Below are positions 35,415 through 62,839 of a DNA stretch of 64,000 nucleotides, piece by piece (position 1 is the first letter of the stretch; each line of letters opens with the position of its first letter). This stretch comes from Owenia fusiformis (lineage: Eukaryota; Annelida; Polychaeta; Sabellida; Oweniidae). Below the pieces are notes generated by a model. That model had not been told where the DNA came from, searched no databases, and saw only the letters and a list, made by a program, of their open reading frames with translations. The stretch covers positions 34,378,538-34,442,537 of the forward strand of contig CAIIXF020000007.1 in assembly GCA_903813345.2 (NCBI GenBank), written 5' to 3'. The position numbers and the translations under genes were made by a program.

Positions 35415-35434
35415 CTAAGCTTAAACTCTGTAAA

Positions 35435-38282: not shown

Positions 38283-38300
38283 TTAACAGAGTGTAGCCTA

Positions 38301-38537: not shown

Positions 38538-38786
38538 TATGTTCACGTCCGTCAAAAAATTGAAAATGTACTTGAGCTCTATGTGATTTTCAACCATCAG
38601 TACAATATGTACTTACCGCTGCGTATGGCTACGAATAGCTTGTCTAATATCCGATACCCTGAGGGGGTGAAACTCCATAATTTGACTGTGATTCGATAAA
38701 ATATTGAAGATTAGATAAGAAATTATTGTACCGGAAGACCGCGAGATCTTGCGAGAATCTGGGAGATATCAAACGAGAAGAGAAAG

Positions 38787-41700
38787 ATGGTGAACTTGAA
38801 ATCGATAACAAGCAACATTTTGATTGCTTTCTGTGCCTTTTCAGCGTTAGGTAAGTAATTTATGTCATCCTTAATGGAATTTGATTATTGTGTGTTGAAA
38901 TTCATAGATCTAACGCTCAAGTGAAATCTTACAGTGATTTAAACATAGTTCTAAATATTCATTCGACTTCTTTCACAATCACCAGTTTCATAACTGCTCC
39001 TTACTGAACACACCTGGCTCAAAAGCCAGCTGACACACCGTTAGAATATACCGGCTTGTGAAGCGTTTTTCCCCAACTTCCAGCTGGTGCGCTGGCATAA
39101 GTAACGGTATTTAGGAAGATAATTGAATATTACTTGCCCCTTTTTTGACGCGTGGTGTCAACAAGTCCTATTTGTTGTGTAATTTGCAGTTAAATTGGAG
39201 AAATTTCTGTTCCGGCGCGCACCATCTTTTAATTTTGGCGCATGCGCTCATAAACTTCTCTTCATTGCAATGCCAACGGAACTTCCCAGAGCTGACTTCT
39301 GTCAGCTCGGTAGAGTAAACTGCTCCTATTACGGAACGGATAAGTTTGATCGCGTTTTAATCGAGTTCTTAATCTGGGAAATGCTAACTGCTTTTTGTAG
39401 GATGAGGTACAGCTGGAAAATACACTAAGGGCAATCTACAACTCGGTTCTTTGATTTCGGTTCTCTGTGCGTATTTTCTGCGCATCTCAAATTTGATTGG
39501 TTGCTTTTTTAGTGAACATGCGCAATGTTGATAGGAAAAAACACTATAGAATTTACCCAGGAGACTTTATGTTCTCAGCTTGGGCCCTTTTGCCACATTA
39601 AGGTGCTATGGAGGCCCAAATGCCCTAAATATGTCACTTCCGCTGAATAGAAAAAAGTAGTTTTCAAAAATGAATGTAGTCCCAACACAATTGTGATCAT
39701 GACGAGTCAGTAAGCTAGTATGTAGGCACAGTTGTCATCTTTTTGCAATGTCAACATGCCATTTCTTCTGAAAATGCGTTTACTTGGGTTATCTCCCGGG
39801 GGGTTCACTGTATATAAAACTCGACAGGGGTCCTAGGCTGAAGCCTCAAATATCAATATGTTCCCATACCAATCTGTCAAATTTCAATATGTTCCCATAC
39901 CAACCAAAATAACGCCCAAAGGCCATACCAAATATCCAAATATAGGACCAATGCCATACCAAATATCCAAATATAGGACCAATGCCATACCAAATGCCCA
40001 ATTATGGGACCAATGCCATACCAAATGTCAAAATGTAGGACCAATGCCATACCAAATGTCCAAATATGGGACCAATGCCATACCTTAATTCAAAGTAAAT
40101 GAAATATAGGATCGTTGGAAATCAACCACTTTTCGAATCGAGCGTCCATTTTTCTTGGCGGCAAGTTTTGTATTGAAATCACGAAAAATCTCGCGAGACT
40201 TCATCAAAGCCTATGATTGGGGTTCTCATTTCCCGGGAAAAGGGCTAAAATTCAAAAGTTTAAGAAGGCCCTGGAAAAGAAGATACTTCGGGAAACGATC
40301 CAAAACAACTTCAAATTTGCAACTACTGGACCAATGCCATACCACGAATATTAGGTAACGTATCTACAACGACCATTCTCATACCAGAAGAGCAAAAGTC
40401 CGACCATTGCCATACCTCAGAAGTCAGAAATTTCCGGGCATTCCCATACCAAATCCTAAAATATGGGTCCATTGCCATACCAAACGTTGAAAAAGGTACC
40501 CCACATGCGCCGAGGATCCCCGTCAAGGTTTTTATATAGTGAACCCCCCGGGGGTTATCTGAAGGAAAATTTCGAATCAAGTGGCGTATTAATTTTGCCT
40601 TCATTTTTGTGAATTTCAATTTCTGTCGGCAGAGAGAGGGGGTAGTGTCACAATTGACCAATTATTTCAAAAAGTAGATGTTTGGCCCCTATTGAGTTTA
40701 GTGTCAAAATGTAGCTTAGACATAGCTTTAGAACCTCAGATAGGCCAGTGAGGCCACATACATCCATAACTCGAGATAAAAAGTCAGGCGTTTGCCTATT
40801 GCCCATTGACTAGTATGGTGACGTGAATTAGGGCAGTTTTGCCGGAAGTTAACAGGAAATGACAAAACAGGAAGTGACAATTTTTTTGCATTTTTAGACA
40901 TTTTTTGAACAAAGATAACAGAGTTCTGTTTTGACCTCCAGTCAATTCAACTAGTTCCAAATACCATTTACAGGTCAAGGATCACAATCTTCATGGTCAG
41001 AATGACCCTAAACATTATGAAATAACCTTTTTAGCCGTTTGAATGTGTGACTGAAAAAAAGCTAAAAGTAGGAGCTAGGGAAGGTCACTGAACAGAATCT
41101 TTTGAATTTTTCAGAAAATGTGTCCAATATAATGCTCTAACTGATTCAACCTTTGAAATTTTAGAACATTGTCTAAATAGATCGCTTTTCAAATCAGTTT
41201 TTTCATTTTTTTTCTTTTCTATGAATGATATCAAAGGACGATTCTCGGTTTGGAGAACAGTCTCCTGGGCTAATAATTTTTTAATGAAAAATATAGAAAT
41301 ATTACCCAAATTAAACTATGAATATTCAAAAGGGGACATTTAAATCTACAAGATGTAAAATTAACAAATTGGTCTGAAGCAGGGATAGCGTTCAATTTGA
41401 CCAATTCAATAAAATACAAGTACCGGTTTGGGGAAAAAAGTTCATCAGTGTACTGTGCTAATATTTTTTTGCGAAAAATCTAGAAATATTACCCAAATTA
41501 AATTATGACTATTCAAAAGTAGACATTCAAATCTATATTACGTAAAAAAATCAAATTTGTCCGAAGCAGGGATAATGCTCATTTAGATTGATGAACTTCG
41601 TTCTCCAAACCGAGAATCGTCCTTTACAAAGATTGTATCAGCATTATATATGTGGAAATAGTTAAATTGACTGGAGGTCAAACCAGAACTGTTATCTTTG

Positions 41701-44700
41701 TTCAAAAAATGTCTATAGTTTTGTTCACAGCATTAATGATGGTGATTGAACGATAATGGGAGACTGCTTTAACCGAAAGGTATCATGGGAAGCACCTTTC
41801 ATTGTTGCGCATGCATAAAAGTGAACTGAATCAGTTACAGATTGCTATAGAACTGAACCGAATCAGATGCAGATTGCCCTTACTCGGAAAATAACATTTT
41901 GGTAAAAAAATTGCTATACCTGCACACTGAGGCCGGAATATACTGTCATTAATAAAAATAATTCTTATCCATAAAGCTTATAAAAATCAGTCTTATTCTT
42001 ATATGTGTAAGTAATCTAGTAAAAGAATAATATACATGTAAGATCTCAGTATACGTGGACATTTTAAACATTTTTAACGTATTCCTAGCCCTCAGTCTGC
42101 GTGTGTTAGTGAATTCACCCCAAACATACAAAATCATATACATACGTTGCATTTCTTTTATGTTATCCAAAATTTATCTTTATTATCATATGTAAACAAT
42201 GATATAATATATGATGTAAAATGAAATTATAGCAAATAAATATGTTATAGAAGAAAAAAAATAAAAGAAGATTTTGACACGGATATTGTCATAATTTCCA
42301 AAATGGCAGCTCCCTCGGGAAGGAACTAGAGTGAATAATTTGAATGATATTGATGCATATATGTCGATTAACCCACAAAACTATAATCAGCTGATTGTTA
42401 AACGCATGAAGAAAACATCGAGGTATGATATTATGTTATCAAGTTGGAGAGGGTTCAGTTTCAAGGAGGAAAATCATAAAAAAAACTATTATCGCCCATA
42501 TATGTGTACCATTCAAAATCCCCAGGGATTTTGCAATTTGGACATCTCCTTAAGGAGAATTTGGGAGACCCACTGTGCCTTTATTAGAATGAATACGGTA
42601 TGTTAATCTCTGATATAAAAACTTAAACGAATGCATGTTTATTTTCTGATTTTTCGATTTACATCATTCATATATTGCAAACATGTTTATGGGATGACTG
42701 CTAATCAAATCCATACATAACTGAAAATGTGATCTCTTAATATGGGAAGCTGGCCAAGCTCAGCCATCTTGAAAGTCAGAAAGAGGTTTTTCTAGATGTG
42801 GATTGATAGCATATTGATATGTTTGTGTCCTCTTTGTTAATTTTCAGATGATCCTCTCCATATAGAAGTTTCATTTACATTAATATTTCAGAATTTGTTG
42901 ATTGTCGCAGAGGTGGCGGCAGATTTAGAGGAGGTTTTAGAAGCTTCAGGTCTTCAAGAAGTTACAGGAGTTATAGAAGCTATAGGAGCTCTTCCATATC
43001 TCGGTAATCAAGATCTGCCAATCTTATTGCAAGCTTGGTTGCTTGGTGATGGATCTTGTTGCTATGATACACTTCTTTTTCCTAGGCTACATTGCTGGTG
43101 CAGCTTGGGTTCAAATAATCAAATAAAATGACAAATTTGCATGCAAATGGGATGATTTTGCATAATTTAACACGCGCTTAGACTAATCATATTTAATGGT
43201 ATATCCTTTTACATAAGAAGGAATTGATTATAATATGTTTATATAAAGTACATGTGCATGAATTTGAACAACTTATTGTCAGTTGGGAAAGAATGAATGA
43301 AATACTGTAGATTGGGTTAATTTGGCGCCCGCTTTAATTTGGCGAATTTTGCGAAATTGAAAAAATCGCCAATATAAATCTTCGCCAATTTAGAATGAAT
43401 CCCCGGGAATTATCTAGGGTATTTCGTCCAGAATATTTAGGTCACTTCCGATTTAGTTTTTTCCAAAAATATGAAAAAATGGCTCTCATAAATTGGCTCA
43501 GAACTGGTCAGTCACTCATTAATACTCAGGGAAAAACTAGTACAGGAAAAGCGCGGTATAATAGCAGCATCGATCGAGGTGCAAAATGTAAAAGATGATC
43601 TCACAAAAATGTACAAACGTGGTGAATATCGCCAATGGTCCTCATAAGAAAAAATGAACATAGCCAAAGATGCCCATTCACATGGTAATTAGCAAACAGC
43701 GCGTAAGTTTAAAAAGATTTTTTGCATATCCACCAAATTAAATAGCCGCCAATATGCCAAAAATGGCAAAATCGCCAAATTAAGTAGCGCCAAATTAACC
43801 CAATCTACAGTATTGCTTTTTGGCCCTGGAATTAGTAAATCAACACATGTTAAATATAAGGTATATAGAGGGGATTAGAAAAACCTGATGTACTTAATTT
43901 GAACTGTTGATATTTGGACATTATCCCATGCCTCACAGGTAATGAAAGCAACCCAAAAGAAAAAATATGGACATTTTCCAAAAAGTAAAACATATTTTTA
44001 TCATGATTTATTTTCTCATTGCATTTACACAATGATTTAAAAATATATCAAATATGCTCCATTCCTTGCCTTTTTTCCTATAAATGAAGCAAAACATTTT
44101 ATCTATTTTATTTCTCTATGCCTTATTTCAGGGCCAAGTCAATATACTATTTCTATTTATATACTATAAAAATTGAACTTTTGTTCAATGTTATTGGATG
44201 TCTCTACAATTAAATGTATCAGGGTATGGTTGTATATAAAACCTTGTTTTAGGTAAATCTGTATATAAAACCTTGTTTTAGGTTAAGCTTTAGTATAAAT
44301 ATAGCTTTTACTGTTACCAGTGATCACCCCAGATAAGAACAGCGTGCTTTAAATCCTGTTTTTGTTAATTTTTTATGTCACCACCAAGAAGTGGTGACAT
44401 ATTGTTATGGTCTCCGTTTTTTTTTACAGTGGTTGGCGAATGACGAACGGCGTCTGTTACAAATTCTTGCAACTCCCAATAACTTAACAAAAACTGTTTA
44501 GACTGACTTTTTTCAAAATCATCTACATGTTTTCAGAATTTCAAATCTGACTTTGTATAGAATTGGCCTTCAATGACCTTTTGAAGGTCAAAAAGGTCTT
44601 TTTCAACTTGCTTCAGATTGACAAATTTTTTTTCAAAATCATCTACAAGTTATCAGAAGTTCAAATCTGACCAAGATTTGACCTTTAATGACCTTCTCAA

Positions 44701-47700
44701 GGTCAAAAAGGTCTTTTTTCAACTTACTTCAAATTGACCAATTTTGTTTCAAAATCATCTACAAGTTCTCAACAGTTCATATCTGACTATACATTTGACC
44801 TTCAATGACATTCTCAAGGTCAAAAAAGATTTGACCTTCAATGACATTCTCCTGGTCAAAAAGGATTTTTCAACTTGCTTCAAATTGACCAATTTTTTTT
44901 CAAAATCATCTACAAGTTCTCAACAGTTCATATCTGACTATAGATTTGACCTTCAATGACATTATGAAGTTCTAAAAGTATTTGACCTTCAATGACATTC
45001 TCAAGGTCAAAAAGGACTTTTTTCAACTTGCTTCCAATTGACCAATTTATTTTTTCGAAATCATCTACAAGGTCTCAGATATTCAAATTTGACTTAAGAT
45101 TGAACTCATAATATTGTGAACAAATGTGTGTTTACATTTTGTCAGGTTAATGCCTTGTTCTAATTTTGCCAAGCATCTCAATATTCTACTTTTTCAACGG
45201 GATACCCAGTTTCTATAATGCTAGGGCAATCACTGGTTATATATGATAATTAAACAATATCTGTGCCATGGTTACGGTATCATTATTAACTGCCTTTCTC
45301 ACCCATCTGCATTTGTAAATAGGCTAGTGGTGAAACAAACTCACTGATGAAACAAGCAGCTAGTAACAACAAATGCTTTCATGTTTACACCTACTTTCCT
45401 AATTAAATATTCTCTTTGACCTTGCATCCTACCAGAATATGTCCATGAGGTACAAGGGGACCCATCTAGAATAAGGATCAGGGTAGGAAGTCGCTATAGG
45501 AGCTACAGAAGTTATAGGAGTTACAGGAGTTACAGATCATACAGGGCTGGTTCTAGCATTTCCAGGTATCCATTTGATAATTGTTAAGAATATGCATGCT
45601 TCTTTGCTCATTAACTATCTCACACTTTTTAATGCTAAATTAACCATATTCCTAAATAAAGGATTTAAGCCCTGCAATGTGGAATGACCATTCCTTGAAG
45701 GTGTCGCTTTCCAAAATTTGCATGAGATGCGCAGCATCAAGTGTTAATTTTAGGGAACAATGCCTGTAAAGAATGGTCATTACACATAGCCGTAGGCAGC
45801 GGGGGTTCGGTGGGTTCGAACGAACCCCCGGTCAAGATTTCCCAAAATATCATTTTGCGGGACAATGCATATAACCAGAAACATTAAATTACTGTGCTAT
45901 TTGAAAACTACATATATGACCAGTAAATTGATTGATATTTGTTACGTTGAACATGAGCAAGCCTTATTTTGTTAAAAGCATGTCATAGTGAAGTTACACT
46001 TCCCTCAAAACGTTTGGCAATCTTAGGTACGGGATGAGATTTAATTTTGGGAAGACCCCAGAGCATGAGATTTTACACTTAGAAATAACAATAATTTCGC
46101 ACAATCAACTAAAAAGCTGCTTCTTCTCGGACAAAATAACCCATCTTGGGCAATGGCTAAATCAGTCCTTTGTAGGAATTTTGTTTTAAGCCAGTTCTGG
46201 TCCAATATGAAGTTATTGAAATTGAAAACAATGCAGACGTCCCATACTCCGAATGATTTTTACAACATTGGCGAATAAATATCTGGAATAGTCGTAATAT
46301 TGATGAAACACATGTTCTTTCAAATGTGTACATCTGTTTTGTTTTATTTCAATTAAAATTTAAAATATTTCTTGGGACGTCCCTTGGGCTGGCAAGTCCC
46401 CAAAACGGATTGCGTTAAATAATTAAAAACGTTGTGAAATGAATTATTTTTAAGCATATATCATTTATAAACACAAGCATTTGTTCAAATTTATTCATTC
46501 TTTCATTTGTTCAGTATTTATTACCCATCAGTTTTTCAAAGAAAATCAATCATTGCAAAAAATGATTTTGTTTTTTTCAGATACACTCCACTCATCTAAA
46601 AGATTGTATAGAATTCAAATTGTTATCGTTCCAGTTTACTTGCTCTCCATTTTCATATTAATGTCATATGTTTAGCGAATAAATTACATGATAAAAAAAA
46701 CATTGAAAAATCATATGGTATTAATCTTCAAATAATGAAGGCATAATTTGTTATCAAGCCGTCTGAACTTAACAAAATACGTTTTATATTCGAACAGTCG
46801 CTTGTATTTATATATGATTTATATACACCAAAACGTTTTTATTATCAATTGCAGTTGATCTGCTCCGGGGGACTTACCACTGAGCTCCGGGGACGTCCAA
46901 AGAAATATTTTTAACTTTTTAAAACAAAGCATAACCGAGACCCACTTATTTGAATAACAGATGTTTTCATCAGTAATACGACTATCCCGGATAGTTTAAA
47001 AAGTGTAAACGTTGTGAAAAGTTATCATAGAAGAACGATCTTTCGGAGTATAGGGTGTTTGCACAATTTTCATTAACCTTGCATTTGATCCGAATTGGCT
47101 TCCAACAAAATTCCTGCAAAAGAATGATAATCCATTGCACGAGGTGACCTATTTTGTCCTAGATGAAGTAGCTTAAGTTAAAGAAAAAATCGTGCGAAAT
47201 AGTTGACATTCCTTGGTAACAAATCATGCTCCAGGGTCTTCCAGAAATCAGACGAAATAATGGTGGATTCGGGGCAAATCAGATTTCAGGATATACATTC
47301 AGTAAAGGATTGACCGAAAAATATTTTGATGCCGAAAATTAATTATAAGTTGTCTGACTTTTTGCACGTTGCCTGTTTATTTTACTTTGTGAACATTAAA
47401 GTTACAAAGCTACAAGGTAATTTTTGAAAATCATTTTTACGTCCTGTGCTATTTCATTGGGAGAGGTTTCTTGATAAAGCCTATTACTTTTTGCCCTTTG
47501 CATTCGTTCGACTTCACTTCTTAAAAGAGAGCTTCGTCTTCGTAGTTTATAACTAGACTCTGCACGCAGGGTATACGTTATTAATTTTAGACTTTGCTTA
47601 GCGTAAATAAAGACATCATTTTTGTTAAATAAAATTTAAATTCAATTGTCTACTTAACTTAAGCAAGGTATTAAAATGACTTATATTTCCCCTCCCAAAA

Positions 47701-50700
47701 TAGTTCTTTCTTTACAAATTATGCATATAGGAATTCAAACTTAAAGATGCTTTAACACATAATCCAATGGGTTAGTTAGGATTGCCAAACTTTTGGAGGG
47801 AGTGTAATTGTACAAATTGCATTATTTGAGGAACCCTAATGAAGGGGGGTGGATTTGTGAATAACTTAAAAATAGAACCCCCGGTCACCAAATCCTGGCT
47901 ACGCCACTGACACAATGCATTGGGTCTTGGGCTTAATTTATTTTTACTCATTGCAAAATATTTTAGACAATATCACTTAAAAGATATGAAATGACTTAAA
48001 AGAATATATTTTCAAGGAAACTTTTTGCAAGTATCAAATTGTTCTTTTTGTGTCAGTCAGCATTAGTGACCTTGGATTCGGTGAGGTTATATAATAGAAT
48101 GCAGTTACATGAAATAGTATGTCCTGATTGGCTGGAATTAGACACACCTTGTCTAGCTATTGTTTTATGACTGGCATTGGAAAACCCACCATTGTGAATT
48201 TAATTTTCAAATATAAGTTAATACAAATGGAACAAATCTAAAAAAGACATTATTAATCTTCTTTAAAAGAGTGCTTCATCTGCACTAAGATCATCATTTT
48301 ATCAAGCCTTACCTAATCAGATGCTTCAAAATACAGTTTCCCACTCAGAAGTGCAGTGACATGTCTACACCTTCATGAGTTTCTACCATTTGGTCTATAT
48401 TATTTAAATTCTTGTAAAAGTATTCTATAGATTTATTTGTCTTATTCAGAGGAAGGTACTTACTACAAGTGTCTTGGATTCAGGGAATAGTCATGCACTT
48501 GTTAAACAATAATCAGAAACAGTGAATGATTTCATGATATAAAGAGTGTTTTCATACCAATTGTTCTCATCTACCCTTGTATCGTGAGTCTCATTTGCTG
48601 AAGCCGATGGTACTGAAAATTATTATTGAATAATATTTTAGTATTTATAATGTAAACAGTGTGAAACTATAATAAATATTTTACTGACAAACTAACTGTA
48701 TATGCCACTAAGTTGATAATATTGTAGCAATTCATTTTAACATTTGGGCCAATCTATATCATAGGGGAATGTGTAAAAGTTATTTTAACTACAATCCTCA
48801 AGGGAGTGCATACCATTCCAATCTAGTAATATGAGATCCAGTCTATATTGATTGCTTATATTAGATCAACTTGAAAAATGAAGGTTATATGGTATGTTCA
48901 TAATGTAGTTGTTATTTCTGCCTCATACTTTGAGCTCATGGGATCAACAAGACATCTGTCCTTGGGTGTGTCTGTCCATCCGTTGGTTCATCAGCTCATA
49001 TGTCACTTCAACCATAAGTGGTATAAATTAAAACTCTGATCCTATTAGGACGTATCTGCATTCATTTTATGTCTAAATTGGTACATAATATGTCAGATTA
49101 CCAGGTTCTGCAGCTGATTAACGTTTGGGTGATTGTCTCATTTTCAGACCTCATTCTTTTGAAATGCTCCCTTAGATTTATATTGAAGAAAATCCTATTT
49201 AAAAGACAAAAATTTTGAATACTTGCAAAACAGACATTTAACTCGAAAGGGCCTTATTAGCAACCAGTGTTCCCCAGTGTTGTCTGAATAACAATAACTA
49301 ATGCTAGTAAAGAGAAGACTTTCCATTACGATAATTAAATAAATCACATGCTAAAAATCACCATACAGTAGTTTATGCAGAAGATGAGTCACATGTATTA
49401 TGTTAAACATTGATTAATAGGGGAGATGGAAGAGTATGCTTTTTGATGTGTATGTTTCGTTCTTCTACTTCAGGAGAATACCATATACCCTTTACAAACA
49501 CAAATCACAAAAATATGAGTGTATTCATGCTGAATTATTTTACTAACTTTCATGAATAATCTACCAACTCCCCCAAATGATCAAATATGGTCTATCCTTT
49601 TCATTTTATATGCAGTAAGTCATAATTTCTCTGGTTTTGTGGTTATTATTACATGTACATATAATTCTTATTTTTTGACTTATAGAAGCAGTGGGACATG
49701 GTGGAAGACGGCACTTGTAGCAGGAACCATATATGGTTCAACCCGATATATGACAAGAAGACGCTATAGGGACTACCCTGATAGACGTAATACACTTTTT
49801 AATATTTAAATCAACTGAAGTCATGAGTGAATCCATTATATGAAAAGATTACAAAAAGTAAATTACTTTTTGGGTCTAATCCAAACTTAGCCTTTAGAAA
49901 AATGTGCATGGAAATTTTCTATCATACTTGATGTTTAGGTCACATAAATATTCAATTGCTAAATTATGCATCACCACTTTAATGTTCATTCACATTTGAA
50001 ACTTAAGTGTCTTAGTTCAATAGAGTTATCTTTGTAAATCTCAAAAAATAATTTAATTTTTTTGCAACTGTAAAACTATCATATTAGTTTTAAGATGAAA
50101 ACTGATGATTATTTAAATTTTAGAATAAAAATTGATAATTCTATGCTTATGTTTACATAATCTTTGTTTTTATAGAGCCAACAATTTGTACAAATAATGA
50201 TGACAAAATCGACAAGGTGACAAATGCTACTTACAGGATGGGCCAGTTTATATGTCCCATGTGGGACCAAGCAGACAGTATGGAGCATTGCTGTGGACCA
50301 ACCAATAAACAACATTGCTGTGGAAGACAAATGTATGTAACCTACAGAATGATAACTTTAATATTTTATTTATTCTTGGCAGAAAACCCAGTCATTTTGG
50401 TTCATTTTCGTGTCAGTATTAAAACGATTTTCTGTATAAGCCTTGTATAATTCACGATTCAGTTTTAATATCTTTGTGATATTGTTAAGTAAAAATGAAA
50501 TATGTCTCCTAAACTATAACTGAAGTTTTAATTTCAGCCAATAAGCATTCATCGGCATGTATATCTAATCAAACATAGAATAAGGCTGTATCTATTTTAT
50601 ATCAAGGGCATTTTTTAGATGACGAGAAAACTCGTCAATAAGTTAAATAAGGAATTTTTTTTATTTGTTCCTCTTTCAAATGAATGCCTGTAGCTTATAA

Positions 50701-53700
50701 TTGAGAAAATGCAGTGAATTTACTTCACTAACTACGGACCTACCCATTCTCAAAAAGCTACCACTTAACAGCATTGATTGTGCATTAAATTAAGCATAAA
50801 GCAAAGTAAATGACAGCAAGAAATATATGTTTCAATAGGTCTGGAGGTAGCATAGCAGGAACTGTAATTGGGAGTCTAATAGCAATAGCTCTGTTGGCCA
50901 CCTGCGTATATTGCTGTTGTTTCCGCAAGACTAAAAGTGGAACTACATATGCCGCATCATTTAGGAAAAGTAAGCTGTTTTTAATGACGATTGCTGACCT
51001 CAACTGTCTTAGACTTTACCCCATACTTTCATTTGGAGTTTCTAGAAAAACACTATGAGAACTTTATGATCACCCTTGTATATTATTTTAGACTTGACTT
51101 GTATTTGTGATTGAAAATAGCAGCTACCGGGTTGATTGCAATTTGATGGCAAACTCATTTAAATATGAATAGTACCTGCCGTGCATCCCGTTATTTGCCA
51201 GCTCTCGCCTCAAAAACAATAGCTGACCTAAATAATGATTGAATCTGGCTATTAAAGCAGTAGCTAACATCGACTATCGAGGTGTTCAGAATACTAAATA
51301 GCGTATGTACATCTGGCACACGCTCATATACTCAAAACACATTTTATAAGTATGTTCAATCATGTGACAATGGCATAAAAAGGTTGTTCGTAAATTACAA
51401 CTTAACGGTTTAATTTATGTAAATTAATGGCTTAATCCGGTAGCCAATAGCCATTAGTTGCATTCGCGAATACAAGCATAGTCTCCTGGATACTTAGTAT
51501 TTATTTTTGTTCAGTTTAAATCTAACAAATGTTTGAATCTTAAACTTGAAAAGGTGGTCATAGAGTAATATTAGTGTAAAATAGTGTGAGCCACATTTGC
51601 ACTTAAAGATACCATTTATGTACAGTATAACAATTTCCCCTTGCTGATTTGTAGAATCTTTAATTTTGACTTGTGTTTCCTATTTCCCTTACATTGATTG
51701 ATAATAATTTCAATTTTTGTGATTGTGTTGTTTTACTTGCTTGATGTCAGAATGTGTATGATGTTATTTCAATAGTTGGCTTGATTCACCTGCAAAATTC
51801 ACTAATTTCACTAATTTAACTTGGAGAAAGCTTGGAATAGTATTTTTGCCTTTTTTCTTTTCTTTTTGCTAATTCTTTCTTTTGTACTGTATTTTATGTG
51901 AAGATCCTAGACTGCATTCTGTTACTTCACTTATTTATTCTTATTTATTTATATTTAACATGTGTCATTTGTAGATTAATCGCTTATTTGAATAGTAAAA
52001 CTGCAAAGTAGAAGTTTCATTAGGGACCTATCTGCCAGAATGAAGCTTCAAAACTACATGTACATGTACTTTGATTTGCAACTTGAAAATGAATCTTTGA
52101 ACTGGTTAAATGACATGTCCATCTAGGCACTAGTAGGCAAGAGCTTTAGTTTTGGAGTTATTAAGTACCCTATTACTGAAACTTATCCTTTGTAGTGCTT
52201 ATCTTTTGATTTGTCATGCATTGCACTGAATATTGAATGTAAAAATGACTGGGTTTTTTCACACACATACAATTAATATAGATAGTTACTTGCTGCATTA
52301 AATGTATATGTTTACTTCTATACTGTATTTAGTCTTAATTTTGGCATACAAAATACATTTCCGGGAGTTTATTTAATTTGTCATTCTTTCAAGATGGAAA
52401 ATGACAAAGACTTCATTGAAAAGATTTATTCGCCAAATTGAATCATCCTCCAAAGAAATACAGTAGTAGTATACATGTAGTTTACTATTATGTCATAATG
52501 ATTTCATGGTGCATGTCCTCCATATTTCTCTTGACTTTGGCATAAATGTCCATTTTCGCCCAATATAGAAGTTTGACGAGTACCATTGAAATAGTTATCT
52601 TTAACTTAACTCAGGAACTCATATTTTTTCCTCTGCCTCCATGCTTTGAAATATCTACTAATGATATTTACCACATGTTTATAAATTCCTGGACACCATG
52701 AAATCTATGTATGACAATATCCTTATGTAGTGACACTTAATATATTGATGTCCACCCTCCTGTTGTTATACTTCTGTACTGATCTCTTTCTGTGTGTGTT
52801 TTACAGTAGTTCAGAAAGATTGCTGGGGATTATCCTGGGTTGTACCCTACCAGTGCTTATACTTGGGATTGCCATATACATGTATTGTCATGCTAAGGCT
52901 GAAAATAAAGAAATTCAAGAATGGTTAAATGAAAGCCCTGGCACTCATTCTAAAAGTGAACCCAGTGAGTACCTAGGCTAAAAATGTTCTGAGGACAATA
53001 TGTCCATGAAAGCTCAATCACATTCATACAAATGATCAAATACATGCAAAATTAACAAGGGGTCATTGGGAAACATCTATTTTCTTTTCCTCTCTTTATT
53101 TCTGTTATTTCCGTACATTTCTCTGTTTTTTCTTTCTTTTTTTTAATATCTAATTATGGTAAATGCACAAAACATAGCAGGGCTGCAGGGGTACCCCATT
53201 ACATGTAAGTGCTTTTGCAGAGTCCTGGGGCCAGTTAGATCTGATCTCGCCTAGACATATGATCCATATAAGTATATATAAAATATGTTTTCACCAGTTG
53301 GCTTGGAATCCTTATGACACATCCTCATAAAGAGTCATCAGGGAAGATTTCTTCTATTATCTTGATTTAAGCTTATTCCTTTATTATGCATTTGATAGCT
53401 TATGGTGAAAACAATGCAGGATATGGGCCTTCTTCATCATCTCCCCCAGCATATGCTTCTCCCAAATATGATGACAGGGGGATATCACATCTGAAGCCTG
53501 TCAAAACCTTCCCGCAGCCTAAATCACGTGGTAAAGCATAGACTTCAAAATAATCATTTTATATAACCCATCTTCAGACAATCATATTCATATAATCAAA
53601 TAACAGTCTTACCATGGCATCATAGTTATAACTATTAATTAATTCATTTCTTGGAACATAACTAAGCAAAGTAACTACATCTTTATCATAATAGCTATCT

Positions 53701-56700
53701 AAACTAACTTTTCTTGTTTTAACCAGCTAATTTGTAGCGACTACTTGTTAAATAATAATTCAACTGTAATAATCATTCATAATGATTGTCTTAACTTTGG
53801 TAACTATAACATTATCCTCAAATCAAAAGTATTACTGCCTTAACCTTAGCAACCATTACATATTCTCATATCCCAATGACAATCTAAACTTTAGCAACAG
53901 TAACATTAACAATATCCCTAAATTAAAGAAATTCTGTCTCAACTTAAGCAACTCATTTACCAATGACAGTCTAAACTTTATTAGCAATTATAACATTAAC
54001 ATTATCTCTAAATCAAGAAAAAACGCTGTCTAACCTTTAAAAACTATAACGTTATCCCTAACTCAAAAAAATATGTCTAAACTGTAGCAACTATGACATT
54101 ATTCCTATATCCTAATAATAATGACGGTCTAAACTTTAGCAATTATAACATTATCTCCCAATCAAAAGGATTGCTATCTGAATTTTAAAACTTTTAAATT
54201 GCTCTTATATTCTAGACTCTATTTGGACTTTTTGTGAATGTTTATTATTATTAGACTCGATTTGTTTCACAATATTTTAGCTTATAATTTACCATCAATC
54301 TTTCTTAAGAGTTTGGGTCAAAACATATCAGTCTTCAGCTATGTTGTATGTGTGATTTAAATCGTTGTCATTATTTTTTAACATGTGGTTACAGCTTCCA
54401 AAAAGTGTAATGCTTTTCACTAATTAACTATTTATAATGTACCTACTGCTTAGCTTAGGGAGCATTTCAAAAGATCGATATTGGAAAATTAACTGTATTT
54501 GCACAGTTAGGGAGGGAGGGGGTCATTGGTCTTAAAAGTTACCATTGTTCTGACATCATTCCCGGGAATTTTCTTAGTGCATGCTCTTTTTGTCCAGTGA
54601 ACTTCTAGTACAAAAAACAACAAAAAAACATGTACACAACAAAAGTAAAATAATACAAAAAATGAGCGGCTATTCATTTGTTTTCAACAGTGATTCTGAA
54701 TTCACAAGTCGCGATAAACTTGTCAAGTATTAAACCTACTGCTGATAATGTACAGAAATACAGATTTGAAAAGTTATTGAAATGACTATATTACATGTTA
54801 CGTTAGATATAGTGCGACTCTCGAAACAACGCATATCAATCTTTCTAAAACACAGTTATAAGGAGGTGAGGCAGGGGTGTCACAGATTAACTGTGCAAAT
54901 ACAGTTAATAATCCTCCATTGAACTTTTGAGATGCTCCCTTACATCCTGTAATTTAGTGAAGTGCTTTTTAGTTATTGCCTTTTGAAACACTTGCTTATT
55001 ACTAGAATTCACCTTGTTTGTTTTGCCTTTCTGTTAAACCTTGTTGATTGTATTGAGTTGTTTGTTACAGAAGAGCCACATGGGCCCTCCTCTCAACCTA
55101 TGTTGAAATCACACAGTCAAGGTAGTGGGATATTTACTACTGTACAGGGTGGGCCAAAAATGCCCATATTTGCCAAAAACTTTTCTGACAATGCATATAT
55201 TTTAGAAATGTTTTTGATTGAAATGCAGTTATCACTTTTGGAATTGTTCTTGAAATGAAATAATGAAAGACTTAGGGGTTTTTGAAAAAGAATCAGAAAT
55301 ATATATAACACCAACATATGCACCATACATAATGTGCCTCTTTAAGATGACTGTTTAAGATGTCCACCTTGTATAATGTATGGGGCATAACTGAAATCAC
55401 TGTACAATTGTAACCAAATATTACCTTTAAACTAGGAGTTTGCACTCACACCCCTCACCCCACTTTACTCATTAGAATATCACTATAGATATAATTTTGG
55501 GACTAATTGAATATTAGATTGCTGCATATCTAATCTATCTGCATATTATTGAAATCCATTCATTATAAAAAGGTTAAAGCAAAATAGAAAATGTGGAAAT
55601 TTTTGGCCCACCCTGTTGATGTAATGCCTCTCTTATTTTGGATATCACTCTCATGTTGTTAGAGCAAAAGCCCACTGGAACAAGATGAATTCCATTTTCC
55701 AAGAACATGGTGAAAAACCACATCACACTCGAGGATATTAATGATATCTCATGAGTTTGATCTGCATTCCTTTAGTTAACCCATAATCATTGTCTCTTCA
55801 TAGCAAGTGAATTTGTTCTCTTACTTATGAAGCCAAATATCCAAACCAGAAGACTTTAAGCCAGTTATTATCACAACCACATAATCCAAATAACTCCCGA
55901 TCTGTGCAAGTATATATATATTTCCAAGGTTTTATTTTGCATTCTGCTCATTTTCTTGATTTAGACTGATATTAACATATTAATACAATATTATGACTAA
56001 TTACTAACATGGCAGAAAAGTGTTCCACATGGGTATGTACATTGTGCATGGTACATTTCATTGTACATTGTGCATGGTACATTTCATTGTACATTGTGCA
56101 TGGTACATTTCATTGTATGTGGATATGCTCAATTTTTCTCTTAAGTGGAATTGCAATATCAAATTCTAATTCCAGCTCCTAATACGGGCACTGCATACCA
56201 ACCACCTCCACAGCCAGTTGCCCAGCCTGTTGGGGTACAACCTTATCCAGGGGCACCTGCACCTGGTGGTTACCCAACTGCACCTGGCGGAGACATGAGC
56301 AAGCAACCACTACCACCTGGAGAAGGTGCAGCTTACCCAGTGAACCCAGGTAAACTTTTAGCAGCTTGATTGGGAATAAAAAATTATTTGTCAATGATTT
56401 ATTTTTTAGAAGAGTTTATTAGAGTTCAAGAAACATGAAGTTTTCACAAAGAATCTTAAAAGACACCTCATTTTGTAAACTGTATGTCCCATAATAGGAC
56501 AACATGCCATTGTTCATGTTTGAAATTACATCATTAGATTACATTCTCATTATGAGGTAAATGGTAAGTAAAGTGCAAGGTATTTCTGTTTTGACCAAAC
56601 TCTTGTTTCGCTTTCAGGGCAACAATATCCCCCTGGCCCTGGAGGACCTGGATACCCCCCAGCTGGTGGCCCTGGATACCCCCCTGCAGGAGGACCTGGA

Positions 56701-56940
56701 TACCCTCCAGCTGGTGGACCTGGATACCCCCCAGCGGGTGGCCCTGGATATCCCCCTGCGGGAGGACCTGGATATCCCCCTGCAGGAGGACCTGGATACC
56801 CCCCAGCTGGTGGCCCAGGATATCCCCCTGCAGGAGGACCTGGATACCCCCCAGCTGGTGGCCCAGGATATCCCCCTGCAGGAGGACCTGGATATCCCCC
56901 TCCTTCTGATGCACCACCTCCACCCTATGGAGCCCAGTAA
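38787..56940 (+). CDS. CX-module/Shisa-like single-pass membrane protein with PGY-rich tail
   Basis: Exons: 38787-38850 (signal peptide, MVNLKSITSNILIAFCAFSA), 42892-43003 or 45436-45565 (Arg/Ser/Tyr-rich), 49686-49786, 50176-50332, 50839-50969 or 52807-52964 (transmembrane), 53399-53530, 55071-55121, 56176-56349 and 56618-56940 (stop). Choosing one exon of each pair gives an open frame of about 414-429 aa. The ectodomain has TALVAGTIYGSTRYMTRRRY, then six cysteines in a CX/Shisa-like pattern (TIC, FICPMW, EHCCGPTN, QHCCG). The cytoplasmic part is Pro-rich, ending in GPGYPPAGG-type repeats as in many membrane-associated adaptors. Family knowledge: CX modules are of unknown function; Shisa proteins trap or modulate receptors. 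Which of the two it belongs to is unresolved. The exon chain is my inference from splice sites and phase; no transcript was available. Confidence 0.78.
39795..40552. mobile_element. hAT-like non-autonomous element with 8-bp target duplication
   Basis: Terminal inverted repeats CCCGGGGGGTTCACT and AGTGAACCCCCCGGG (the similarity extends over about 50 bp: TATATAAAAC, CGACAGGGGTCC). Both sides are flanked by GGTTATCT (39787-39794 and 40553-40560), an 8-bp duplication as made by hAT-type transposases. The inside carries tandem words of the form GGACCAATGCCATACCAAAT. It is nested in the composite fold-back region and has no transposase. Confidence 0.82.
39857..40086. repeat. Internal 30-31 bp tandem repeat of the hAT-like element
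   Basis: About six copies containing CCATACCAAATATCCAAATA and TAGGACCAATG, with scattered single relatives continuing to about 40485. The periodicity makes a spurious ORF. Confidence 0.8.
42892..43003 (+). CDS. CX gene, alternative exon 2a (RSY-rich)
   Basis: Acceptor TTAATATTTCAG, donor CG-GTAATC. Enters in phase 1 and leaves in phase 2. Encodes EFVDCRRGGGRFRGGFRS followed by RSYRSYRSYRSSSISR. It shares its start (acidic-aromatic-V) and end (SSISR) with the exon at 45436-45565, which has the same phases, so the two cannot both be used without a frameshift. Confidence 0.75.
43305..43810. mobile_element. TA-flanked MITE, about 505 bp
   Basis: Ends TA-CTGTAGATTGGGTTAATT and AATTAACCCAATCTACAG-TA. 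The inverted similarity extends through TTGGCGC/GCGCCAA and further AATTTGGCGAA-type words. Diverged relatives are seen near 7195-7480 and 52320-52468. Confidence 0.85.
44385..45115. repeat. Dispersed repeat with internal tandem units
   Basis: Starts with a hairpin GTCACCACCAAGAAGTGGTGAC and then carries about five imperfect copies of a roughly 110-130 bp unit (TTCAAAATCATCTACAAGTT, GACCTTCAATGACATTCTCA, AGGTCAAAAAGG, TTCAACTTGCTTCAAATTGA). Non-coding; probably a decayed retroelement tail or an old satellite in the intron between exons 2a and 2b. Confidence 0.7.
45436..45565 (+). CDS. CX gene, alternative exon 2b (RSY-rich)
   Basis: Acceptor TTGCATCCTACCAG, donor CCAG-GTATCC. Phase 1 in, phase 2 out, identical to exon 2a. 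Encodes EYVHEVQGDPSRIRIRVGSR followed by about five RSY repeats and AGSSIS. The TAYAGRAGT-type codon repeat is shared with exon 2a at the nucleotide level, so the pair looks like an exon duplication. Confidence 0.75.
45786..47912. mobile_element. Large fold-back element with CCGTAG/CTACG ends, about 2.1 kb
   Basis: Left end TAGCCGTAGGCAGCGGGGGT and right end AATCCTGGCTACGCCACTG are inverted relatives, both with G/C-rich subterminal blocks as in the 15.2-kb element. Inside, 46000-46400 is matched in inverted orientation by 46880-47240 (for example TTTGTAGGAATTTTGTT against AACAAAATTCCTGCAAA, and CATACTCCGAA against TTCGGAGTATA). The central 460 bp and the right outer part are unpaired. No transposase ORF. 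Confidence 0.75.
47913..49685 (+). other. Intron sequence of the CX gene
   Basis: AT-rich intron before the exon at 49686. No further RSY-type exon, hairpin or repeat array was recognised. Confidence 0.4.
50839..50969 (+). CDS. CX gene, alternative transmembrane exon 5a
   Basis: Acceptor TATGTTTCAATAG, donor AAAA-GTAAGC; phase 2 in, phase 1 out. Encodes a single TM helix (SIAGTVIGSLIAIALLATCV) followed by a CCC palmitoylation-like cluster and basic residues (FRKTKSG). It shares phases with 52807-52964. Confidence 0.77.
52320..52468. mobile_element. Diverged small MITE in a CX-gene intron
   Basis: About 150 bp between ATACTGTATTTAGTCTTAAT and AAAGAAATACAGTA, with inner TTTTGGC and GCCAAATTGAA words. 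Probably an eroded relative of the 43.3-kb MITE. Confidence 0.45.
52807..52964 (+). CDS. CX gene, alternative transmembrane exon 5b
   Basis: Acceptor TGTGTGTTTTACAG, donor CCCA-GTGAGT; phase 2 in, phase 1 out. Encodes a different TM helix (GIILGCTLPVLILGIAIYMY) and an acidic/polar cytoplasmic stretch (CHAKAENKEIQEWLNESPGT) in place of the CCC-basic cluster of exon 5a. Using both TM exons would shift the frame, so they are mutually exclusive by phase. Confidence 0.75.
53765..54190. repeat. Degenerate tandem repeat, about 70-75 bp period
   Basis: Words such as TCTAAACTTTAGCAAC, ACTATAACATTATCCC and CCTAAATCAAAAA recur five or six times. Intronic and AT-rich. Confidence 0.65.
54456..54942. mobile_element. 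MITE family copy 2 (Harbinger-like), about 485 bp
   Basis: TIRs of about 55 bp: left GGGAGCATTTCAAAAGATCG with AACTGTATTTGCACAGTTA, right the inverse ending TTTTGAGATGCTCCC. TTA is present on both sides, compatible with the 3-bp TWA duplication of PIF/Harbinger. Same family as 32972-33760, with a shorter interior. Confidence 0.75.
55145..55615. mobile_element. MITE with CAGGGTGGGCCAAAAAT ends, about 470 bp
   Basis: Left TA-CAGGGTGGGCCAAAAATG and right ATTTTTGGCCCACCCTG are inverted. The left flank is TA while the right flank has mutated. This is a common Tc1/mariner-type terminus. It begins 24 bp after the small exon 55071-55121 of the CX gene. Confidence 0.8.
56036..56116. repeat. 26-bp tandem repeat, 3 copies
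   Basis: TGTACATTGTGCATGGTACA plus TTTCAT repeated three times with almost no change, about 60 bp upstream of the Pro-rich exon at 56176. Confidence 0.85.
56618..56940 (+). repeat. Coding Gly-Pro-Gly-Tyr-Pro repeat in the last CX exon
   Basis: About a dozen copies of GPGYPPAGG-type units (roughly 27 bp) before SDAPPPPYGAQ and the stop. The C-terminal PPPPY could be read as a PPxY/WW-ligand-like motif. The antisense and shifted frames stay open because of the period. Confidence 0.85.
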
Positions 56941-59900
56941 AGCAGATTCAATAAGATTGGGTTGCCTTAGTATCTGGATTATCACCATAAATCCTCTACA
57001 TTAACACCATGACCCATCTACATTATATCAGAGAAGAGAGCAGTTGCAGTTAACCTTGGAAATAGATTATTATATCTTACTAAAATCAAATCAATTAACA
57101 CTATGTATCTACTCTAGAGACAGATTGTATATTAAAATTATGTACAGTTATATGTTATTTGACACTGAATTAGCTACATAATGTTGTCTACATTTGTTGA
57201 AGCATGATGTGTTCTTGATGGTCACCACAACATCCTAAAATAGCAGATATCTTAACATTTTCATATACCTCAACAATTAAAGTGGTTTGCTCTTTAGATA
57301 CTGTAAATATTTTAATTACTGTATATAATTGTATAGATGTATTCATTCTATAAAGGTAACATGACAATTTATATGGATTTGTCTTTGCCCAAATTGCTTA
57401 TTGTTCAATAACATTCAGCATAACATGGGATAAAGAGGATGTTTCTCCTCACTACAATCAATATATCACCAAGGAGATGTAGGAACATTGTTAAAGCCAC
57501 CATTTTTGGTGGCTTTTAGTTGGTGAAATTTTCCCCAACTTAATGCCTTTAATATGATTTTGTTTGAATCATCCTGGTTGTATTTTATAGCCTACATGTT
57601 GGAGTAGTATACATATCATTTGGTTTTGATATTTTAATAGTTAAGAAATACTCTTCTTATATATTTACATATACAGTTTAATATATATTTAGTCTAATGT
57701 GCAGTCCCAAAAATCTTAAAATAAGGGCATACTTTGTCTTGTCTGTGCAGTAGACTGTATCTAAAAACTCTACAAAGTATTTTATTTTTACTAGCACAGC
57801 AATTGCATTTTATTAACTCATAGCAGTCGGAACCAAAAGTGGATTTGCAACAATGCTATGCAATTTTTCAATAACAAGAGAAACGTAATCCCAATCGGTA
57901 GTCACTACTGTCAAAGGGAAATTTGAAATTCTCAAGGTATAACAATACCTCTAGTTTGTTTGTTTGCCAGTTTGTGCCACTTAAATAATGCTGTCTTGTT
58001 GGCTCCCCTGTATGATACTAAACACAACAGAGTTCTTTAAAAAGATCTGAAAGATAAGTCAGCTCAGGGGAGTAACTTGTACTTCAAGTCGTTCTTAGAC
58101 AGCTATTGGTTAAGGAATGCAAAGCAGAATGTGTTTGACTCATCAATATTGAATTTTACATATGCAGACTTGCAATTATTTTTGAGACAATATGGTTGTT
58201 TTATGTATTTTATATCTGTTGTATCTTCATGTGTTATTGAGATAAAATCTTAGTGGAATATCTAGTAATACATTATATGGACTTCTCCAAAACATGTAAA
58301 TCAGACTATAAATGAAATTTGTCGTAATGTCTTTCTTTTTTTGTGATGTCTGCTTAAGGGCAGAGCTTGGACACACGATATGCAGTTATAAAACAATCAA
58401 ATCATAATATTTCATTTGCATGATTATGAATGAAAAACATCTGTATGGACAGATGCTATAATGCTTGTAGACAGCTTAAATTGGAGAAAATCAAAAATAC
58501 ATCCTTAGTTGCTCAGTTAGCAATTTTACAAAATCAGTTCATGATTGAGTCATTGATTTCAATTACAATTTTTGCAAATTTTGAATCAGAATTTGAGTCT
58601 TGGGAAGATGTCTGCTTCAATATCTTTTTGCCTTGAAGTATTCTTTATATTCATTTGAAATTAGTTTAAATATCCTAATCTTCTTGAGATTTAATATTCA
58701 GGATTGTAATGGACAACTTCTGATAATTGTTTAATTATACAATGAAATGTTTGAACAATCATTCTATTTTTACTACATCTACATATATTTCTTAATACTA
58801 CATATACACATATTTAATATTCTTAACTTACAAGAAATATGTACATGTATCTGACTGTCTGATAAGTATCTAATAAAATTATAAATGGCTCTGGTATAAA
58901 TATGAATTCTGTTTGTTGTAGTATTGTAATGTTGGTCAAGTACAGTAAAACCTGTGTATCCAAACACCTGTTATATCAACACCTCTCAATGTGAACACTT
59001 TTTGCGAAATACTTTTGTCTCAGAATGTGAACACCCGCTGATGTGAACACTTTTGGCAAGTTCCTGTAGTGTTTCCATTGGGCAGATTCTACTGTGGATT
59101 GACTAAAGCCATAATTTTGCGTCGGCTAAGTTTATTTTAATTGACATTTTATACAAATTTATGTCAATACTGTACCAGTCAGTCAGGCTTCATATCCGTT
59201 GTGTAAGTCAGTTATGAAGGAAAAAGAAAACATCACAATAGGGAAATTCAAAATTAACAATTTCAGTATTTCAATAAATATGACTATTAGGCGATGAGGC
59301 TATGCAACAATTGATTGAAATGTTCCTAGCTTTTCCTATATCATCACACAAAGTGCTATATTGTTGCCACTGTGTGTCTGTCTGACAGTTGTGCCAAGTA
59401 AATGTTGCCATCAAAATTCCAGGAAAACTGCTTACCTGTTCAACTTTCACATACAGCAGAGTAGTGCTGATATCACTGGTCCCTACGTTACGTCTTTATA
59501 ACAAAATGGATGTTATTATTAATACATACTGGTTAAACATTTGGATACAAATCAAGCTCATTGCTAGTGAAAATGAGAAAATAAGAATTTCCTCTTACGA
59601 AAGTTCATCCATTTTGTTATAAAGACGGAACGTCTTTATCCCCAGATATTCAGATATTCACTGGGGACCAGTGAATATCTGAATAGGCTTTGACATCTTG
59701 AGTAAATTACTCAATGGCCATTTTGAACTTTTGATAAAAGGTACAATATGCATCAATATGTGTCTTGGTATTCCCAATGGCAAATTCTTTAAAAATCACT
59801 ATTTAATTCCATGAAGCAGCTAATAGACACTGAAAAGTGCAAATGTTTTTATAGCACCCTTTTTTAATATAATATTAATCATACTTCATAGGTTTTGTTA

Positions 59901-60567
59901 TAGTCTCCAACTTTTTTGTGGCCTGCGGTTTGTGTTAGGAGCGTCTGTAACAAATGGCAGGTAGTGACATTTCTCATTTTGAGGCCTTGTTTTATAATGT
60001 AAAAGGCAAATAAATCTGAATTATCTACTCTTTGAAAATATGCATCGATATGATTGTATTCCTTATAATACATTTTGTTAAAAACTATTGTTAACATTGA
60101 ACATGCAGTCAGAACATGCAGTCGTGACAAGTCTACCTTCTTTGCTTGTAACTACGTCAAAAAGATATTTGAGGTTTAATGACTGTTTTTGGTCTTAGAT
60201 ATTTCCTTTTGATATGTTTTGTTGTTATTGGCATCCATTGAGCACTTTGGCACCTTACTCATTCCATTTATTAAAGTTAAAATTGTTCCATTGTTATCTG
60301 GTTGATAGCATTAGCCAAAGTTTTGCATTTTTGTTTAGTTATTCCTAGTATTCTAAAGATTTCTTCCTACGTGTTCTGAACTATTGCATGATGTAATCAC
60401 ATGTATTAACACACACGATTTGATGTGCAAGTATGCTACTGTTTCAAGACACTTTAACATAGGAGTCTATGGGATAAAAAAGCCAAAAATAAGTGTTAAG
60501 ATTTTAGGTTGATTTCAACATATTTTATACTGCTTTTGATATAGACAATCATATATCCATATTTCAG
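56941..60567. other. 3' UTR of the CX gene and spacer before the second cassette
   Basis: A candidate poly(A) signal ATTAAA lies at 57276-57281. No convincing start exon (ATG plus hydrophobic stretch ending in phase 1 before GT) was found for the downstream cassette. Contains the small MITE at 58941-59096 and an inverted pair near 59491/59622 (TCTTTATAACAAAATGGATG against CATTTTGTTATAAAGACG). Confidence 0.45.
58941..59096. mobile_element. Small MITE, pogo-like ends
   Basis: Starts TACAGTAAAACCTGTGTATC and ends GGCAGATTCTACTGT (TA target lost on the right), with repeated GTGAACAC words inside. Related in layout to 14550-14715. Confidence 0.65.
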
Positions 60568-62839
60568 ATTATGTCACTTGTCGTGGTGCTACAGGTTGGG
60601 GCAGTTATACAGGCTACAGGGCTTATAAGTAAGTATAGTCCAGTGATATGTCAGTCCAACAAACCAAATTTACAATCACAGGACCATCGTGTAATAGTCT
60701 ATGGAAAATACATTCATATTTTTGCAAAGTTTTGCATATTTTGGATTGTCTGTGTTTTGGCTAATAAATGTCTCCCTCTTTTCTTTTGATGCTTCTCTGA
60801 CATATTATTTTCAAAAAAATGTTATGACTGAAGTCAAAGGTTTATTGCAAATAAAAATTTGTCCGAGATTTGTAACATAAAATCGTTTTCCCATATTATA
60901 TTGCACTGTGGTCATTTGTTTATTTTTTAATTTCGAGACTTATTAACATTTGTTTGAGTTCCCTTATCTGGCTCACTCTGTATAATCGATGATGTTCCTC
61001 CAAAACGAATGTCTAGAATTGTTCGGCTGTTCTGCTGTACTTTGATTCCTTGTATATTTCACCCTGCTTTCCTTCAATGCTTATATATTTGCAGTTTTCT
61101 ATTTCTTCCAGCCCATGTATGGACCACATCTGATATGAGCTTCACCATATTTATATCTTATTGTGTTACAGTGCAGTTAGAATGAACTCAGTCAGTTCAA
61201 ATAAAATTGGTGAATATATTAAAAAACATGTTATTTTACAATCAGTTATTTGCATCATTAATTACTTTTTAACGTTTAGTTCTAGAGGCAGCGGTGGAAT
61301 ACCTTGGAGAACAGCACTTTTGACGGGAGCGTTATTCGGCTCAACAAGATACATGTCAAGACGACGCTACATTGACAATCCTGACAGAGGTACATTTATT
61401 TCACTTTTTATTTTCTTCGTCTCAACTTACTCGTGAGGGTGACTGATCACACTATAGTAACATTACATCATGTTGTATCAACATTATTGTACCAAGTTGT
61501 AAGTACTTGTAGTAAAAATGACATATTTACACAGCTGCCCATTTTTGCAGTAAGAAATTAAAGAAATTCTAGATTCAAACAAAAATGTTAAATAGCGACT
61601 ATTGCTGATATTTTTCGTTATGTTTTAGAGCCTGTAATATGTGTAAACTATGACAACCAGATTAACGCTACAGCCGGTGTAATAGTGAACGCTACAACAA
61701 ATGCTACTACTAATGCTACGTATGTCATGGGGAGGTTTATATGTCCAATGTGGAACCAAAATGAGAACATGCAATGTTGCTGTGGCCCAACAAATAAAGA
61801 GTATTGTTGCGAATGTACCATGTACGTATCATCATGATAAAACATAAGGTAGAAGGGTATATGGGTTGCCAAACTCATCGAGGGGGTATAGCACAAATCT
61901 CTAAAATGGCATTCTATCGGTACAATTTATGCATTACAATTTATGTTATTGACTCTGCTATGCAACTTCCAGTAGCACCTGAACAGCTCATAGGTAATGA
62001 TTGTTAGAGCTCAACAACAGACTAAAACGGCAAATCAATTCTTTTTAGAGCTCGTATAATTTCAATACTGTGCCAGATATGATTTTTTTCATTTAGTTCA
62101 GAGTTTGAGCATGCCAAATGCAATGCGTACGTGGTCGGTAATCTCTTTATCTCAAAGAGCATTCCCTCTACTTCTCACTTTCTTTTTTGGTATTACACTC
62201 TTCTTTCATTTTGACTAGTTCACATTGTACTATTTATGCAGGTCTATAGGGGCTATTGTCGGAATCGCAACAGGGGGTGCCCTAGGTCTAATCATTTTGG
62301 TGTCCATCGCTATACGTAGCTTTTGTTATTCTGACCTTCAGAAAGGCCGTTGTCGGAAGAAAAAAACTGGATGCGCAAAAGGTAAGTAGAACTTTGTCAA
62401 TAAGAGGAATTTAATTATTAGACAGTTATCCGCTTTGTGCAAATTGTTTCGCATACACAGGTTTCATAGATTAAAGGGGCAACACAATTGCCCACATCAT
62501 GCCTTTATTTTAGAATGACATGACAAAGTGGAGATATCTGCAGATTAAATCTTTAATGTTTTCTATATTTGATCAGACAACTCTTTTGTAAAAATAGAAT
62601 TGGGATTGTATTTAGGAAACATTAGAATGCTTTCTAAAAATATTGCTATCAACATTCGACTCCCTCCTCACCTTAACTATGACGCTAACTTTGACCTAGA
62701 TGATGTTGTGGGCGTTGCAAAGACCTTCCCTGATGGCTACCAGACAACCTATGGCAACACTCCTGCAATCGGTGATAAACAAGCTAAAGATGACTTAAAT
62801 AAGCAACCATGGCCGGGGCCAGAAGAAGGTTCATCTTAA
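60568..62839 (+). CDS. Second CX-module membrane protein cassette (5' exon not found)
   Basis: Exons 60568-60628, 61280-61389, 61629-61821, 62242-62381 and 62616-62839 join in phase (243 codons including TAA, entering in phase 1). Order matches the upstream gene: an aromatic/Gly-rich short exon (DYVTCRGATGWGSYTGYRAY), TALLTGALFGSTRYMSRRRY, a six-cysteine CX/Shisa-like exon (VICVNYD, FICPMWNQ, CCCGPTNKEYCC) with extra NAT glycosylation-type sites, a TM exon (GAIVGIATGGALGLIILVSI) and a short polar tail. It lacks the PGY repeat. No signal-peptide exon was identified upstream, although its first exon has the phase needed to accept the first exon at 38787-38850. A candidate poly(A) signal ATTAAA lies at 62909-62914. 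Confidence 0.72.

Follow-up and report, generated by a model that had tools for sequence, protein, structure and literature searches.

The plus strand of the 64-kb window (the whole stretch of DNA analysed here) carries a Shisa/CYYR1-like gene at 38787–56940, with a signal-like exon 1, a C*C*CC*CC domain, a single transmembrane (TM) segment and two PPxY motifs in the tail. Two of its exons – A (50839–50969) and B (52807–52964) – are probably alternatives for the one TM-exon position in this type I adaptor, and at the level of the open reading frame exactly one of them is permitted per full-length product.

Both exons had been placed at these coordinates, and credited with one TM helix each, in a preliminary description of the DNA, and both points were borne out: each exon is preceded by AG and followed by GT, is entered in phase 2 and left in phase 1, and encodes a single strongly hydrophobic stretch on the Kyte–Doolittle scale. 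Exon A (131 nt; acceptor tttcaatag, donor AAA/gtaagc) and exon B (158 nt; acceptor gttttacag, donor CCA/gtgagt) have one open frame apiece, namely the one that fits phase 2/1; spliced to exon 4 at 50332, A yields M-SGGSIAGTVIGSLIAIALLATCVYCCCFRKTKSGTTYAASFRK and B yields I-SSERLLGIILGCTLPVLILGIAIYMYCHAKAENKEIQEWLNESPGTHSKSEP. The best 19-residue Kyte–Doolittle (KD) means are 2.39 for A and 2.65 for B, next to 2.37 for the corresponding exon of a tandem paralogue. Scored with generic splice matrices (based on textbook frequencies), acceptor and donor reach 2.5 and 7.0 in A and 6.1 and 7.8 in B, the acceptor of A being the weakest internal one of the gene and that of exon 6 (2.7) the second weakest. 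We regard A and B as very likely to be real, well-formed exons.

Such exons are rare by chance. A strict scan of both strands for AG...GT segments of 90–220 nt, with splice scores at or above the lower of those of A and B, an open phase 2/1 frame and a KD mean of at least 2.2, returned three candidates on the plus strand of the window and none on the minus strand: A and B, which pass by construction, and the paralogue TM exon. The null set, 40 sequences of 64 kb simulated with a first-order Markov model and scanned on one strand, yielded no candidate. Lowering the KD threshold to 1.6 gave four candidates on the plus strand, the fourth at 55006–55148, and none on the minus strand, with a null mean of 0.225 and a maximum of 2; laxer splice cut-offs (0 and 4, at KD 2.2) likewise gave four and none, with a null mean of 0.2 and a maximum of 1. 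Apart from nested variants of the three known exons, the lax scan added no further TM exon to the gene.

Upstream of the pair, all on the plus strand, lie exon 1 (38787–38850; signal-like peptide MVNLKSITSNILIAFCAFSAL, phase 1 out, donor score 10.3), the two versions of exon 2 (2a, 42892–43003, the Arg/Ser/Tyr-rich start of the ectodomain with one Cys, and its alternative 2b, 45436–45565, each phase 1 in and 2 out), exon 3 (49686–49786; ectodomain, phase 2 in and 1 out, with a weak donor scoring 1.2) and exon 4 (50176–50332; phase 1 in and 2 out), which encodes the six-cysteine C*C*CC*CC domain. Exon 1 is called signal-like on hydrophobicity; a scan of 33000–42000 for first exons with an ATG, a hydrophobic stretch and a phase 1 donor gave it as the sole match. 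Downstream, also on the plus strand, the tail is encoded by the constant exon 6 (53399–53530), with the first PPxY motif (PPAY), by exons 7 (55071–55121) and 8 (56176–56349) – these three all phase 1 in and out – and by exon 9 (56618–56940), with PGYPPAGG repeats, the second PPxY motif (PPPY) and the stop codon. Splice sites and phases agree with the junctions at 50332 and 53399 and with the exon 2 pair, as previously described. At the end of exon 6 (53528–53532, plus strand), two GT dinucleotides, at 53528 and 53531, stand 3 nt apart and could each serve as a phase 1 donor, amounting to a one-codon difference. The stretch of the last exon that encodes PGYPPAGG (56639–56900, plus strand) is a 24-bp repeat in 10.9 copies, with possible length polymorphism.

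The four combinations of 2a or 2b with A or B are all open, encoding 414, 423, 420 and 429 amino acids. With both TM exons included, translation stops within exon B (product of 228 or 234 residues; 396 nt upstream of the last junction), and with both omitted within exon 6 (147 or 153 residues; 350 nt upstream). Tested with TM exon A, leaving out exon 2 puts the stop in exon 3, 714 nt upstream of the last junction, and joining 2a to 2b puts it in 2b, 866 nt upstream. Because double use or double skipping breaks the frame, a full-length product contains one exon 2 and one TM exon. The earlier statement that phase forbids the use of both TM exons is correct for the protein but not for splicing, as phase does not stop the spliceosome; mRNAs with both or neither would be expected to enter NMD. 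One could imagine that both exons are purposely included or skipped, either to make truncated proteins – double inclusion keeps the exon A helix without the PPxY tail, double skipping yields a protein that lacks the helix and ends behind the Cys-rich domain, giving anchored tail-less or soluble products – or as an NMD switch that lowers expression; we consider this whole reading extremely improbable, since the distance of both stops from the last junction leads one to expect decay. The claim of at least four isoforms, for its part, holds as four complete ORFs of one gene with one slot and matching phases, whereas their real production, the independence of the two choices and mutually exclusive splicing are more than the frames establish.

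Two criteria for mutually exclusive exons set out in extracts of PMC3228551 describe A and B well: they are neighbouring exons with the same frame and phases (2/1), and their lengths differ by 9 residues, within the allowed 20. The ORF logic is consistent with a further criterion, a single exon of the pair per mRNA.

The strongest independent support for a phase 2/1 TM slot after exon 4 comes from the tandem paralogue (60568–62838, plus strand). Tblastn with exon 3 and exon 4 found second copies at 61290–61388 (E 3e-12) and 61628–61810 (E 2e-19), and the two-exon proteins (exons 3+4) of gene and paralogue are 59% identical when aligned. The paralogue exons run, on the plus strand, 60568–60628, 61280–61389, 61629–61821 and 62242–62381, followed by a last exon that ends with TAA at 62838 and whose start is fitted by four acceptors; the TM exon (62242–62381; phase 2 in, 1 out) stands after the exon 4 copy with the phases of A and B. 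A lax scan of 61822–62700 found no second TM exon, no PPxY occurs in the 45-residue stretch of the tail that was checked, and the paralogue matched no Pfam family. The comparison is silent on the age of the second TM exon and lends no support to an old pair. The exon at 60568–60632 (plus strand) can be read in two ways, either in phase 1 as DYVTCRG..., like 2a, or from an ATG at 60571 as a signal-like stretch, MSLVVVLQVGAVIQATGLIS, which continues in frame into the next paralogue exon by way of the donor at 60633 rather than that at 60629, 4 nt away. An exon 1 common to both genes is less likely given this own ATG and signal-like stretch, and a separate start for the paralogue is likelier; a first-exon scan of 56950–60567 gave no strict match and, when relaxed, one weak candidate (59302–59371).

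By the relative alignment score used in WebScipio (BLOSUM62, gaps −10/−2, homology cut-off 0.15; extracts of PMC3228551), A and B fall short as homologues, with 0.072 and 0.058. The paralogue exon of the same slot scores 0.044–0.086, also below 0.15, and exons 3 and 4 of gene and paralogue score 0.58 and 0.51; at this locus, TM exons change too quickly for such a test. Exons 2a and 2b, with lengths that are both 1 mod 3, reach 0.383/0.333, above the cut-off, with much of the score coming from an Arg-Ser-Tyr repeat, and by this test the exon 2 pair appears better supported than the TM pair as an either-or choice.

An ungapped comparison of 28 residues from the splice junction (100,000 shuffles; window and blocks chosen after seeing the sequences) gave a BLOSUM score of 41 for A and B, with a block-shuffle p of 8e-5 and identities at 6/28 positions (p 0.11); the values were 27 (p 0.003) and seven identities (p 0.06) for A and the paralogue, and 14 (p 0.019) and seven identities (p 0.04) for B and the paralogue. 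Aligned in this way without gaps, the three TM exons agree at four positions, S2, G8, G12 and L20 (block-shuffle p 0.0014), with a GxxxG spacing that sits equally far from the junction in each; GxxxG is a frequent motif of TM helices. Used as a query, each of the three also picks out the remaining two ahead of all other non-self regions among 1,329–1,881 candidate segments (932+949 with A as query, 677+652 with B and 858+840 with the paralogue exon), a match to which shared hydrophobicity contributes in part; with A and the paralogue as queries, the best B segment stops at a nearer GT, 52955, and the annotated exon B ranks 3 and 5. At the DNA level, blastn aligned the two regions in seven places, and exons A and B lie outside all of them. 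Common descent of A and B thus appears likely but unproven, and tandem duplication is not established. B is not a remnant of a whole gene copy, because a tblastn search at E ≤ 10 gave no second exon 4 or exon 6 in 50333–53398, the sole match being a chance one of exon 6 to 12 residues inside exon A (E 5.3).

Exons A and B are separated by an intron of 1,837 nt and both use GT/AG sites, which leaves no evident steric or splice-type obstacle to their joint use. A 16-nt perfect complement (50383–50398/52242–52257; blastn E 0.002) would loop out exon A, yet complements of at least 16 nt occurred in 8/140 placements of the same geometry elsewhere in the window, and its duplex energy was reached by 2/20 shuffles (13/20 and 14/20 for the other two intron pairs); intron pairing is therefore not claimed as a cause of exclusivity, none of the pairs standing out from chance. 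An alternative last exon after A was set aside on the AATAAA signal, of which 50970–52806 has none. The same long intron might instead house a promoter, which would make B part of a transcript with an alternative start and not an internal exon choice; alternative-promoter exons are indeed a stated source of false positives for such predictions (extracts of PMC3228551), but we hold an alternative start to be very improbable here, given the acceptor score of 6.1 in B and its need for an upstream exon of phase 2, which exon 4 supplies.

The juxtamembrane difference between the two forms, reported earlier as a CCC plus basic cluster against an acidic stretch, is real, with a net charge of +5 in A and −2 in B. 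The helix of form A ends in CVYCCC, followed by FRKTKSGTTYAASFRK (five K+R, no D+E), and that of form B in YMYC, followed by HAKAENKEIQEWLNESPGTHSKSEP (three K+R, five D+E). Because the corresponding stretch of the paralogue is basic (eight K+R, one D+E; net +7), the basic edge seems to be the older state, with B as the odd one out, which agrees with a weak CYYR1 profile match present only with form A. These contrasts also feed the proposal that the gene regularly uses just one TM exon and that the counterpart – A for its weak acceptor (2.5 vs 6.1), or B for an acidic edge unlike that of A and the paralogue – is a rarely used or decaying duplicate; the lax scan, too, found just one TM exon in the paralogue. 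We judge regular use of one exon alone unlikely: decay should in time erode frame and splice sites, but A and B are both fully open and in phase, with donor scores of 7.0 and 7.8, and a dead exon A would sit poorly with the fact that isoform A, not B, gains its weak, below-cut-off CYYR1 match through the TM part.

If A and B are alternative TM exons, exchanging them would leave the Cys-rich ectodomain and PPxY tail untouched and alter the helix with its cytoplasmic edge. The Cys cluster of form A might be palmitoylated, next to its +5 stretch, and form B would present one edge Cys and a net charge of −2; palmitoylation of Cys at the TM end has been proposed for Shisa-1 to -5 (in passages of PMC10531659). 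The membrane address would probably be changed in this way through acylation and charge, the same adaptor reaching different membranes or partners with a constant recruitment of WW-domain (Nedd4-type) proteins, PY-motif/Nedd4 links being described for short TM adaptors in extracts of PMC5578492. Regulation of the choice may act through the weak acceptor of A. A more elaborate scheme, which we offer as speculative and doubtful, has two separate switches, with 2a/2b setting the face of the ectodomain and A/B the membrane or juxtamembrane address, so that the same Nedd4-recruiting PPxY tail would serve different cargo and membranes, from a palmitoylated, basic-edged surface form to an acidic-edged form kept in another compartment. 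The gene would, if the choice is real, provide a small test system for the role of the TM helix and the first cytoplasmic residues in adaptor sorting, with Cys-rich domain and tail held constant, and would suggest that splicing, besides gene number, diversifies Shisa-like proteins.

To our knowledge, a choice between TM exons has been proven in few genes. The precedent closest in kind is exon 17 of insect Dscam1, where one of two TM exons is likewise chosen, alongside a separate choice among ectodomain exons (passages of PMC3364881); Dscam1 is, however, an unrelated Ig-family protein with thousands of ectodomain forms rather than two, and the choice is established there and predicted here. By this analogy, the gene would represent a known kind of splice choice in an apparently new instance. 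No title with Shisa stood among the matches listed for Shisa and mutually exclusive exons in the literature, which does not imply absence from print.

As to family, the C*C*CC*CC pattern of exon 4, behind a signal-like sequence found by hydrophobicity scan, is that of Shisa-like (STMC6) proteins (extracts of PMC5578492), as are the single TM segment and the PY-motif tail, with PPxY in exons 6 and 9. The Pfam profile scores lie below their cut-offs (Shisa_N, PF13908: 17.8–19.3 bits, cut-off 22; CYYR1, PF10873, with form A: 19.3 and 16.8 bits, cut-off 31, spanning profile positions 26–112; no CYYR1 match is listed with form B), and we therefore call the gene Shisa/CYYR1-like by sequence and file it in neither family. 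With Shisa proteins it shares the signal-like first exon, the six-Cys domain, one TM segment, the Pro-rich PPxY tail and, in form A, Cys at the TM end, but it differs in its extra Arg/Tyr-rich ectodomain exons and its two TM exons. CYYR1 has a similar Cys-rich ectodomain, Cys in the TM segment and a PPxY tail (extracts of PMC5578492), but the splice variant described for the human gene in passages of PMC1863428 is a 3-nt acceptor shift and not a TM swap. Adaptors of the Commissureless/PRRG4 type are also short, single-pass, PY-bearing and receptor-moving (extracts of PMC5578492), although Commissureless, unlike this gene, is without ectodomain Cys. The resemblance is one of mode of action only; according to the abstract of the same paper, CYYR and Shisa failed to reproduce the effect of PRRG4 with Robo1.

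Those protostomes that have Shisa genes have one or two, with a loss in one mollusc (passages of PMC7653359), and in the gill of one mussel a Shisa domain is among the over-represented annotations (passages of PMC5549309). Among prokaryote genomes and viral contigs there were 39 and 25 pattern matches, respectively, none confirmed by tblastn, as expected for an animal gene, and solved structures gave three matches, to the TM segment only (best E 0.63). Elsewhere in the window, the minus strand carries, in 12820–32014, an ORF with a DEP domain (12820–13239) and another with a Mem_trans domain (31493–32014). Taken together, as a putative single gene, they resemble GPR155/LYCHOS. A Mos1-type HTH fragment lies at 30099–30584.
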